From the IMG/VR virus record IMGVR_UViG_3300028027_000250, positions 1 through 22,899 of that record: a DNA stretch of 22,899 bases; one strand, written 5' to 3'. The stretch's first letter is position 1. Every line of letters starts with the position of its first letter. The DNA is from a virus. Positions 11,142 through 14,356 of the stretch are shown here, piece after piece. A program made the position numbers and the translations under genes. Under the pieces are notes generated by a model. The model searched no databases, had not been told where the DNA came from, and worked only from the letters and a program-made list of their open reading frames with translations.

Positions 11142-11176
11142 TCCCCTGCCTTTAGTTAAAATTACTGCAAACTTTG

Positions 11177-11213
11177 AGCCCTGGGAGTGTTATAACTCTT
11201 GGGGCTTTTTTTT
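11177..11213 (+). terminator. Rho-independent terminator
   Basis: AGCCCTGGGAGT (11177-11188) pairs over all 12 positions (three G-U) with ACTCTTGGGGCT (11195-11206) around the loop GTTATA. Eight T follow (11206-11213). It lies 35 nt after the 192-aa gene and should end the fibre/lysis transcript. Confidence 0.9.
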
Positions 11214-11235
11214 GTCTACTACTTTTGTTGATATA

Positions 11236-11265
11236 ATACTAAAATATAGGGTAATACTTTAGTAT
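11236..11265 (+). promoter_or_regulatory. Inverted repeat, possible operator
   Basis: ATACTAAA (11236-11243) and TTTAGTAT (11258-11265) are perfect inverted arms around a 14-nt spacer. TAATACT occurs at 11234-11240 and 11252-11258, and AGTATT (inverted) at 11291-11296. A TATAAT (11232-11237) overlaps the left arm but has no good -35 at 16-18 nt. It could be a protein-binding site; no repressor gene is visible in the window. Confidence 0.35.
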
Positions 11266-11282
11266 GATTTATGAAGAACCTG

Positions 11283-11290
11283 TATAAATA
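11283..11290 (+). promoter_or_regulatory. TATAAATA octamer, exact T4-late-promoter match
   Basis: TATAAATA lies in the middle of the control region, 200 nt before the next gene and upstream of the second terminator-like hairpin. It is one of two exact matches to the T4 late octamer in the window. A transcript from here would meet the 11378 hairpin after about 90 nt and could be a short RNA. Confidence 0.4.
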
Positions 11291-11316
11291 AGTATTGTAG
11301 CAGGCAATTTTAGACA

Positions 11317-11336
11317 TATATTCCTTTATATTCCTT
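11317..11336 (+). repeat. Tandem 10-bp repeat
   Basis: TATATTCCTT occurs twice in tandem (11317-11326, 11327-11336). It is too short to assign a function and may be a slippage product. Confidence 0.6.
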
Positions 11337-11377
11337 TCTTTTGTATTTGCCAAAGTACTGCCAAGTCCTGTTACACT

Positions 11378-11417
11378 GAAAAGACCAAGTTTTTAGGCAT
11401 TCTTGGTCTTTTCTTTT
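11378..11417 (+). terminator. Second terminator-like hairpin
   Basis: GAAAAGACCAAG (11378-11389) and CTTGGTCTTTTC (11402-11413) form a perfect 12-bp stem with a 12-nt loop. TTTT follows (11414-11417). It lies 14 nt before the sigma70 -35 box, so it probably insulates that promoter from read-through. Confidence 0.75.
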
Positions 11418-11430
11418 GGCTGAATTTTAC

Positions 11431-11459
11431 TTGATAAACCACTGTTTTTAATGTATAAT
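11431..11459 (+). promoter_or_regulatory. Near-consensus sigma70 promoter
   Basis: TTGATA (11431-11436, five of six consensus bases) is followed after exactly 17 nt by TATAAT (11454-11459, six of six). The expected start is near 11466, leaving a leader of about 25 nt with AAGGAG before ATG 11491. It is the strongest host-type promoter I see and probably drives the early/replication block. Confidence 0.8.
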
Positions 11460-11467
11460 GATAAATA
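11460..11467 (+). promoter_or_regulatory. GATAAATA motif overlapping the sigma70 start region
   Basis: GATAAATACAA begins directly after the TATAAT box and covers the expected start site. If the motif is a phage promoter, this gene block could be read by both host and phage-specified transcription. Confidence 0.4.
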
Positions 11468-11490
11468 CAATACAACATTAAAGGAGATAT

Positions 11491-11667
11491 ATGTTAAACC
11501 AAAATTTATTCAACTACGAAGAAGAACGCAGAGAAGCCTTGGCCTGCCACAATATTGCACTATGGCATAAACTGGTCAAAGAAGAACAGGCTCAGACTGA
11601 ACGCCAAGAATATTATTTTCAAAAGATGCTGGACGATGATATGGATCGTTGTCTAGGAGGTTTTTGA
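11491..11667 (+). CDS. Small hypothetical protein (58 aa), first gene of the early block
   Basis: ATG 11491 follows AAGGAG (11481-11486) by 4 nt and the frame ends at TGA 11665-11667. The 58-aa product is highly charged and helical: NYEEERREALACHNIALWHK, then KEEQAQTERQEYYFQKMLDD. It is the first gene behind the sigma70 promoter. Its stop overlaps the next start (TGATG), and the AGGAGG for the next gene lies inside it. I recognise no family. Small charged proteins at the head of phage early operons often bind and redirect host proteins; that is general knowledge, not shown here. Confidence 0.7.
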   Translation: MLNQNLFNYEEERREALACHNIALWHKLVKEEQAQTERQEYYFQKMLDDDMDRCLGGF

Positions 11668-12395
11668 TGCAGACATTATATACATTGGCATTTTTAGCCG
11701 ATAATGAACCGGTGGTATTTTATGTAGGTCATACTAATGATGTAGAACGTAGACGCCGTGAACATTTTAAAAATCCATTAAATCCGGAACACGCAGAATA
11801 TGATACTTACAAATATCGCTGGTGTCGTGACTTATTGGCTGCAGGCATTGAGTATACATTAACACCTATTTTAGAAATAGAAACAGAAGATGATAGTGAA
11901 TATGAATGGATATTAAAATTTGCCAGAGACAATGAACAGCGAGGTATAGAATTTTACGATGGCTATCCATTGACTAATATGAAGGCCGGAGATTTTCTAG
12001 AAGATTTAATTAAAGATACTAGTATTGTTACTGCACATCAAATTCGTCATTGGAGAGCAGAACGCAGGGCTAAAGAAATCCGTTATGAAGAAGATTTAGG
12101 CAATGCTGAACAAAGTGCTGTGGCCATAGAATTGATTGATATGCTAAAACAACAAGGACACGATTTACGAGTTCAAGGATATAAAGAAGAAGTTAAAAAA
12201 CTTAAAAAAGATATTCGTGAGCGCGAAATGTTAAACAGTCCAGAACGTGCTGAATTTATCAAACAACAGACCATTGATTTATTAAAACGGGAATTGTTAG
12301 AAAAGACTATTACTTGGTATGAATATGACAGCGAAATAAAAAGAATGGGAGGTTATCCAGAATGGACAGAAACTAAGCCTCAATTAAAATATTAA
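11667..12395 (+). CDS. GIY-YIG nuclease domain protein
   Basis: ATG 11667 has AGGAGG (11655-11660) 6 nt upstream; an in-frame TTG at 11649 has none, so I use the ATG (242 aa). The N-terminus matches the GIY-YIG fold: YTLAFL (5-10) and FYVGHT (18-23) replace the GIY and YIG strands. ERRRREH (27-33) holds the conserved arginines, and E80 before WI is a likely catalytic glutamate. Residues about 130-235 are helical and very charged (VKKLKKDIREREML), a possible DNA-binding part. GIY-YIG enzymes cut DNA one strand at a time and include homing endonucleases, host-DNA-degrading and repair enzymes. It lies directly upstream of the structured non-coding element at 12434. The target is unknown. Confidence 0.7.
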   Translation: MQTLYTLAFLADNEPVVFYVGHTNDVERRRREHFKNPLNPEHAEYDTYKYRWCRDLLAAGIEYTLTPILEIETEDDSEYEWILKFARDNEQRGIEFYDGYPLTNMKAGDFLEDLIKDTSIVTAHQIRHWRAERRAKEIRYEEDLGNAEQSAVAIELIDMLKQQGHDLRVQGYKEEVKKLKKDIREREMLNSPERAEFIKQQTIDLLKRELLEKTITWYEYDSEIKRMGGYPEWTETKPQLKY

Positions 12396-12397
12396 GA

Positions 12398-12405
12398 GAT
12401 AAATA
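12398..12405 (+). promoter_or_regulatory. GATAAATA motif before the structured leader
   Basis: GATAAATA begins 2 nt after the stop of the GIY-YIG gene and ends 3 nt before the first hairpin (12409) of the long leader. If it acts as a promoter, the transcript would begin at the structured region upstream of the helicase. Confidence 0.4.
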
Positions 12406-12408
12406 AAT

Positions 12409-12427
12409 GTGTAGTGCAATGCTACAC
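12409..12427 (+). other. Hairpin at the head of the structured region
   Basis: GTGTAG (12409-12414) pairs with CTACAC (12422-12427); a T-G wobble can extend it to 7 bp around the loop GCAAT. No T-run follows, so it is not a terminator. Confidence 0.6.
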
Positions 12428-12433
12428 CTCTGT

Positions 12434-12542
12434 CGTAGTTGACAAAATCTCACAAACCAATTAAGGCCTTCAATGGCCTTAAGCGGTGAGTAAAGCAGTG
12501 AGATGTTTTATTCCGTCCGGTGAAACTCCGGTGGCAACTACG
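12434..12542 (+). ncRNA. Predicted three-way-junction structured element (RNA or origin)
   Basis: The inverted repeats nest. P1 is CGTAGTTG (12434-12441) with CAACTACG (12535-12542). P2 is ATCTCAC (12447-12453) with GTGAGAT (12498-12504), extended past one bulge by AAA/TTT. P2b, inside P2, is TTAAGGCC (12461-12468) with GGCCTTAA (12475-12482), loop TTCAAT. P3 is CCGTCCGG (12513-12520) with CCGGTGG (12528-12534), one bulge and one wobble, loop TGAAACT. P3 abuts the P1 closing strand with no gap. The P2b loop TTCA and the P3 loop TGAA are complementary, so a loop-loop contact is possible. I match it to no known riboswitch, ribozyme or intron. It may be a regulatory leader of the helicase gene, a free RNA, or a replication origin structure. 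Confidence 0.6.
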
Positions 12543-12577
12543 TAGAGAGGCAATAATAATTTCCTCCAAGTGTTCCG

Positions 12578-12597
12578 ATACTCAAACCTTTGAGTAT
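12578..12597 (+). other. Hairpin just before the helicase ribosome site
   Basis: ATACTCAA (12578-12585) and TTGAGTAT (12590-12597) form a perfect 8-bp stem with the loop ACCT. It ends 13 nt before AGGAG (12611). With no T-run it is unlikely to be a terminator. It may influence access of ribosomes to the helicase start. Confidence 0.6.
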
Positions 12598-12622
12598 AAT
12601 ATCTAACCTTAGGAGAAATAAT

Positions 12623-14356
12623 GTGATTGATAACATTATAAAAATAAACAAGGAAACTAGCGCGGATAATATTCGCACAAAAATTAAATCCTTGCAAACG
12701 GAAAGAAGTAAAACTGAAAAACTTTACAATAACGAAGTTGATCCAGATGTTAAAAATATTCGTTTCGAAAAACTACAAAAACTGGATCACGAAATAGCCG
12801 ATTTGACTACAGAGTTAAATGCTATTCAAGAACAAAATAAAAAGAAAGCAAAACAAAGTTTAGATAGCGTTATTGCCAATAATACTATTGCTTATATTAG
12901 CAGTGATGACAAATATATTTTGATTAGAAATTATAGTAAAACTGAAACTAAAGTTAACCTAGTGGAAACTATTTTAAGTAAAACTGAATTGCCTGGCGTA
13001 TTAAACAATTTAAGCAAGACTAGCGGACAGTTTGATGAACTTAGCTCAGTTGATATTAGACAATGTTTTGAACGTTGTGGTAAAAGTTATGTTATTCGCA
13101 CCAGCAGTTTTAATGATGATAAATGGAGAGATGATGAAGTTTATAACATTATTAATGAACAAAGAAAATATTGGGCTCCTATAGATAATGGTACAGACTA
13201 TGATCCATTATTTGATGATTTAATTTATAGTCTTGCTGGAGGTAAACAAGAAAATATTGATTACATTGAAAAATGGGTAGCGTTCAAATATTTGTATCCT
13301 GAAAAATGTAAAACTATTCCTAATTTAAGTATTACAGGTCGCCCGGGCGGTAATGGTAAAGGTATGTTTATTGTATTGTTGCGAAGTATTTTTACAGAAA
13401 ATGGTGTAGGACTTATCCGCAGTAAAAACTTAACTGGAGGTTTTAATGCTGTAATGGAAGGTAAAGTTATTACAGTATTAGATGATGAAAAGAAAAGTAA
13501 TTTTCCACAAGATGAACTTAAACAAAATACAGGTAACCCTGCTGTAATGATTGAACGCAAGGGTATTGATAGTTATACAGTCGATGCTACAGCCAATACT
13601 ATTGTATTAGATAACACAGGTTTAGTTAAACTAGTAGGTGGAGGTATCGGCGGAGAAGATAGACGTTGGAGTATTATATCTACAGAACTTAAACTTTTGG
13701 ATCATTTACAAGAGAAATATGAAATAACCGATGAAGATAGTAGAAGAGCCGCAGATGAAATGGCTACTAAACTATTCGAAAATAGAATCAGTTCTGGTAA
13801 ATGGGTAGCTCATTGTATTGAAAAATGGGATGTACATAATATGAATGTATTGCCACCATTGCACGGTGTTGACTATTTGGATAGAATTGCAGAACAAAAA
13901 GATAATTGGACCACTATATTTGAACAAGTATTGCCTATTATGATTAATCAAGGTTTTATGCCGATGAAGTTTCTTAAACAGATTATTGAAGCAACTACTG
14001 AAGAACGCATTAAAAATGCTGGTCCAATGACTAAAAAGTTTGATGAGTTTTTAAGTAGAAAAGGACATAAGAGTGTAGAAAAAGTGGAACAGGCCTATTA
14101 TAAAATTAGTATGGGTCCGAGAGGGTTGGTAGAAAAAGATAAAGGTGCTATTCGTAGAATTGATCCTACTGCTAACACTTTTGACTTCCGTTTGATTAGC
14201 AACGAACCTTGGAGCAAGAAAACTCCAATCACTAAAGACAGTTTAGAACTGCGTGATTTTAGTGTAGAAACAGCAGAAATAGATGTTGCAGACCAGCTTT
14301 TTACAAAAACGCAAATCAACCCCGTTTACCCCGTTTATGAGGATGAAGATGAGTAA
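12623..14356 (+). CDS. SF3/D5-like replicative helicase (DUF5906-type)
   Basis: I choose GTG 12623: AGGAG (12611-12615) is 7 nt upstream, while the ATG at 12621 is followed at once by TGA in its own frame and the TTG at 12590 lies in a hairpin. This gives 577 aa. Residues about 10-80 are coiled coil. The ATPase core shows Walker A GRPGGNGKG (239-247), Walker B KVITVLDDE (281-289), a sensor strand TANTIVLDN ending at N331, and an arginine finger region GGEDRRWSII (R347/R348). This is the phage/plasmid primase-associated helicase family, which unwinds DNA at the fork as a hexamer. The C-terminus NPVYPVYEDEDE is encoded by the first two ACCCCGTT repeats. The primase gene follows 113 nt later. 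Confidence 0.85.
   Translation: MIDNIIKINKETSADNIRTKIKSLQTERSKTEKLYNNEVDPDVKNIRFEKLQKLDHEIADLTTELNAIQEQNKKKAKQSLDSVIANNTIAYISSDDKYILIRNYSKTETKVNLVETILSKTELPGVLNNLSKTSGQFDELSSVDIRQCFERCGKSYVIRTSSFNDDKWRDDEVYNIINEQRKYWAPIDNGTDYDPLFDDLIYSLAGGKQENIDYIEKWVAFKYLYPEKCKTIPNLSITGRPGGNGKGMFIVLLRSIFTENGVGLIRSKNLTGGFNAVMEGKVITVLDDEKKSNFPQDELKQNTGNPAVMIERKGIDSYTVDATANTIVLDNTGLVKLVGGGIGGEDRRWSIISTELKLLDHLQEKYEITDEDSRRAADEMATKLFENRISSGKWVAHCIEKWDVHNMNVLPPLHGVDYLDRIAEQKDNWTTIFEQVLPIMINQGFMPMKFLKQIIEATTEERIKNAGPMTKKFDEFLSRKGHKSVEKVEQAYYKISMGPRGLVEKDKGAIRRIDPTANTFDFRLISNEPWSKKTPITKDSLELRDFSVETAEIDVADQLFTKTQINPVYPVYEDEDE

Follow-up and report, generated by a model that had tools for sequence, protein, structure and literature searches.

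A well-supported candidate for a new phage leader RNA family with a pseudoknotted core

One question raised by the IMG/VR viral record IMGVR_UViG_3300028027_000250 is what kind of element occupies the untranslated DNA between a GIY-YIG nuclease gene (11667-12395) and a DUF5906 gene starting at GTG 12623, and what this element may do. The window analyzed here is the whole record, 22,899 bases long. It represents a small tailed phage that encodes portal, terminase, scaffold and capsid genes, and these genes are akin to those of Pelagibacter phage HTVC112P and phage DSL-LC06. The start codon of the downstream gene is preceded by AGGAG. The original prediction had placed a new structured RNA at 12434-12542, in what was described as the longest untranslated leader of the window; as a non-coding stretch, 11142-11490 is longer than 12396-12622. 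The GIY-YIG motif residues of the upstream gene product are kept in 11 of its homologs, and its top Foldseek match is T4 EndoII, which is weak (E 0.2, prob 0.97). A 58-amino-acid open reading frame (11491-11667), kept in two related loci (L010 and L041), overlaps the start codon of the nuclease gene and gave no match above chance in a family search. The features discussed below are collected in Table 1.

Table 1. Features of the leader and its flanking genes in the window.
Feature	Position	Strand	Evidence
GIY-YIG nuclease gene, upstream	11667..12395	+	weak Pfam GIY-YIG match, just under cut-off
TAAATA motif	12400..12405	+	same place in 6/7 loci and in the second RNA element
H1, leading hairpin	12409..12427	+	30/30 pairs, 6 sequences; 5/5 positions doubly compensated
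P1 outer stem, 5' strand	12434..12441	+	56/56 pairs; 8/8 doubly compensated, 7 sequences
A strand, pseudoknot with A'	12447..12453	+	49/49 pairs; 5/7 doubly compensated
Hairpin C, ACC/GGU base and internal loop	12456..12487	+	49/49 pairs; 7/7 doubly compensated
B strand	12488..12496	+	49/56 pairs; 5/8 positions doubly compensated
A' strand, in loop of B/B'	12498..12504	+	partner of A
B' strand	12505..12513	+	partner of B
Hairpin D (CCGUCC...GGU), abuts P1 3' strand	12514..12534	+	24/24 pairs, 6 sequences; 2/4 doubly compensated
P1 outer stem, 3' strand	12535..12542	+	partner of 12434..12441
H5 hairpin	12549..12564	+	29/31 pairs; 3' side can alternatively pair with Shine-Dalgarno (SD) region
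Predicted SD-hiding stem, AUUUCCUCC with GGAGAAAU, around hairpin 12580-12595	12559..12619	+	SD unpaired probability 0.004
DUF5906 helicase/primase-like gene, downstream	12623..14356	+	Pfam DUF5906 E 6e-14; PHROG DNA primase

Two perfect 8-bp stems had been named in the original prediction, and both were verified in the sequence: the outer stem P1 (CGTAGTTG/CAACTACG) and an inner hairpin (TTAAGGCC/GGCCTTAA; 12461-12468 with 12475-12482). The long-arm stem (A/A', ATCTCAC/GTGAGAT) and the hairpin abutting the closing strand are present as well. Positions 12434-12542 fold at -41.2 kcal/mol, against a mean of -22.7 for shuffled versions (z -5.7; 0 of 200 shuffles), and the whole leader (12396-12622), for which folding against shuffled controls had been proposed, gives a z of -6.2. 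In the minimum-energy fold the long-arm stem is replaced by another stem, B/B' (GAGTAAAGC/GTTTTATTC).

Homologs of the element were found in six other viral sequences (L010, L041, L044, L046/L048, L049 and L188), and a whole-record search gave a single copy per record. L010 was reached through a terminase search and its leader is 79% identical over 120 bases; the nuclease search led to L041, L044, L046/L048 and L049, and a DNA pattern derived from the RNA led to L188, plus the other members. Helix strands were picked by eye in each leader and then checked for order. When the strands of the seven loci are concatenated free of gaps, 97% of the cells are paired over 33 tested pairs, a percentage that is favored by the choice of strands by eye; sliding the partners by 1-3 columns leaves pairing at only 30-46%. 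At 25 of the 33 pairs both sides have changed with pairing kept, and 0 of 500 shuffles were as good, in a test that kinship among the sequences inflates. Compensation at all eight P1 positions and at five A/A' positions is, judging from these alignments, not the outcome of strand choice alone.

A' is situated within the B/B' loop, which makes the two stems cross, and since both covary the core can be described as a pseudoknot within the outer stem, accompanied by two hairpins. The predicted fold that is shown by comparison to be conserved thus consists of a leading hairpin (H1), P1 around the pseudoknot A/A' x B/B', and hairpins C and D, with the ACC/GGU base of hairpin C invariant across the compared sequences; in L010 hairpin D is absent and two B pairs are lost. 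The four stems that had been proposed are present, yet the set is incomplete because A/A' and B/B' are both conserved. The crossing stems may form simultaneously or in alternation, and their linker of only 1-2 letters would require a kissing-type geometry. The letters TTCA and TGAA do stand in the loops of the window, but the loop-loop contact that had been read from them is absent in L041, L044, L046, L049 and L188. Pairing of GGUCC, ahead of the 3' strand of P1, with GGACC, past H5, would make a possible further pseudoknot; it is perfect in L188 but mismatched in L041 and L044, and is therefore not claimed here. Support for H5 itself is weak, as cross-pairing is nearly as good.

Departures from perfect pairing in the core stems include G-U and no A-C, which fits an RNA read on the + strand. 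A place in front of the replication genes could also suit an element acting as DNA, such as a replication origin or a cruciform, but crossing stems and G-U pairs suit RNA and make this very improbable. An intergenic element with a compact, pseudoknotted shape and conserved unpaired letters would be compatible with a self-cleaving ribozyme or an RNase processing site that splits the nuclease and replication messages. Against this stand the lack of a match to any Rfam ribozyme family and the L010 copy, with its missing hairpin D and B pairs, and we consider such a function quite unlikely. A group I intron has a similar topology and was rejected: only one letter separates A' and B', so there is no P8, and no Rfam intron matched.

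Is this RNA already known? An Rfam search and a search for covariation in relatives had been proposed as checks. With Rfam 15, searched to E 10 with the window leader and its homologs, no family matches, and the best overlapping scores are 8-18 bits against gathering cut-offs of 40-88; the strong covariation across the seven loci has been given above, and the proposal of a new structured RNA holds up. A covariance model was built from six of the sequences; it gives these six 81-110 bits and recovers L010, which was excluded from building, at 34.4 bits (E 1.7e-6). The remaining fetched viral loci gave background scores only, and a further pattern run over the viral collection added zero members. 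Phages, plasmids and genome contigs, searched by DNA similarity and by pattern, yielded chance matches only, among them a Klebsiella phage match within a coding gene (E 0.7), and viral contigs searched with the helicase protein alone gave nothing. No description of the leader RNA was found in the open literature, of which coverage was incomplete. A new leader RNA family with a pseudoknotted core in aquatic phages is, from the comparison of sequences, well supported.

Another question concerns the genes beside the element. A GIY-YIG gene lies directly upstream of all seven copies, with few spare bases between. The L188 gene exceeds the Pfam cut-off for this domain, while the other nucleases fall just below it and yet align over the motif with conserved residues. 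Downstream, the first gene varies, although a replication module follows in all six of the seven loci that are readable (the L188 record stops just past the start of the next gene). A DUF5906 helicase gene follows in the window and L041, and a PriCT_2-type primase gene and then a helicase gene in L044, L046 and L049; of this pair as tested in the L044 record, the primase is weak and the helicase is VapE-like (E 2e-44). In L010 a zinc-finger-like gene is followed by Prim-Pol. The element does precede the helicase in the window, as had been noted, but is not helicase-specific, and the lack of homology among the first downstream genes counts against a simple autoregulation by their products.

This constant neighbor could mean that the RNA is a partner of the nuclease, which may bind it, be guided by it or act on it as a regulatory target, with both traveling as a unit. 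All true matches of the RNA-first search (five distinct sequences) have the nuclease, including L188; this locus came to light by the RNA pattern, and its nuclease is only distantly homologous (27% identical). Both nuclease and RNA are missing from seven terminase-sharing relatives whose upstream sequence is long enough (L006, L009, L015, L026, L028, L035 and L036). With the window excluded, the unbiased tally is one locus that has both against seven that lack both. Such a tally has little power, and the main support for the link comes from the RNA-first search. However, GIY-YIG homologs often occur without the RNA (L042, L045, L047, L050, L051, L211 and L213), in L042 and L211 ahead of a Prim-Pol-like gene, and shared gene order could by itself produce the link. 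We regard a partnership as unlikely, and a ribonucleoprotein or dedicated RNA-nuclease pair in phages as improbable. To our knowledge no pairing of such kind has been described for GIY-YIG enzymes.

The region after P1 points to a different function. In the predicted folds of five of the seven leaders (window, L010, L044, L046 and L049) the SD is almost fully paired, with a mean unpaired probability of 0.001-0.033, and hiding is partial in L041 (0.42) and L188 (0.34). A test over six leaders, with dinucleotide shuffles of the upstream part, gave a combined p of ~4e-4, which is only moderate, with single-leader fractions of 0.007-0.52. The L044 leader differs from the others both in the SD region and in its partner strand (GGAAAU/AUUUCC), and pairing is retained. 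A cross-pairing test among leaders did not demonstrate specificity of the anti-SD pairing, because most SD sequences are alike. The strand that would pair with the SD doubles as the 3' side of H5; in these models this suggests an on/off choice. In L046 (1590-1610) and L049 (1850-1870) two ATG codons in different frames follow the SD, and the nearer one opens a 7-codon reading frame that overlaps the primase start.

Based on the conserved core and these predictions, we find it fairly probable that the element is a cis-acting leader RNA which controls translation of the replication operon. Transcription would start at TAAATA, just past the stop codon of the GIY-YIG gene, and the leader would fold on the replication-operon mRNA. 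With the region after P1 folded as H5 the SD would be free, whereas pairing of the H5 3' side with the SD would block it. This balance could be shifted by a binder of the pseudoknotted core, for which the likeliest candidates are a phage protein from the replication module and the upstream nuclease; the timing or the amount of helicase or primase made would be set in this way. The constant GIY-YIG neighbor, which the original prediction had overlooked together with the pseudoknot, the flanking hairpins and the predicted SD-hiding stem, is not explained by translational control alone.

TAAATA itself is a possible -10-like promoter or a 5' boundary of the RNA. It also bears on whether the element is a free small RNA acting in trans on phage or host messages: the motif marks the 5' edge of the element, an edge shared by a second RNA element (11285-11420) that also has a terminator. 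Yet no terminator follows the leader element, which runs to the ribosome-binding site in every locus, and such a role is hardly probable. The second structured element, which opens with TAAATA...TTGTAG as the leader element does, resembles a small RNA gene in its own right. It is also found at L010 1171, L023 625, L028 6480, L015 5423, L042 2807 and L047 1602; its outer stem carries compensating changes (GTAGCAGG/CCTGTTAC, GTAGTAGG/CCTACTAC, GTAGGCAG/CTGCCTAC), a terminator-like hairpin follows it in most loci, and the window copy has no Rfam match. On the + strand, 9 of the 12 TAAATA copies in the window overlap intergenic DNA (5522, 10558, 11285, 11462, 12400, 16159, 17523, 19391 and 21000), with none there on the - strand. 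The motif resembles a T4-late-type promoter, and some copies overlap stop codons.

It is rare for a phage replication gene to be regulated by a pseudoknot leader. A complex, conserved leader of aquatic phages that always stands beside a GIY-YIG gene provides a concrete family for a ligand search, and also lets a possible link between nuclease genes and replication control be examined. Like translational riboswitches, it combines a conserved folded core with a variable region behind it that is able, by prediction, to hide or free the SD; unlike them, it has no Rfam aptamer match and precedes replication genes rather than metabolism genes. Hairpins that hide the ribosome-binding site are found at the phage homing endonuclease genes I-TevI, segB and mobE (PMC2988022). 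These too are RNA structures by a phage nuclease gene, but the structure in the window is far more complex, comes after the nuclease gene and would target the gene that follows. By analogy, the nearest functional counterpart is the T4 gene 32 pseudoknot. Directly upstream of gene 32 is segG, which we take to be a GIY-YIG gene. The gene 32 promoters lie inside this endonuclease gene (PMC2988022), and gp32 binds a pseudoknot 67 nt upstream of the start codon and blocks translation, in what may be the sole viral example of a pseudoknot in translational autoregulation according to a 2010 review (PMC3014915). Both systems have a phage leader pseudoknot ~70-80 nt before the start codon of a replication gene, and both have the order nuclease, pseudoknot leader, replication gene. 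The genes of T4 and the window are not homologous. The T4 pseudoknot is a simple one of two stems with an unstructured A+U-rich stretch behind it, whereas that of the window is enclosed by a closing stem and accompanied by two further hairpins and a predicted SD-hiding stem.
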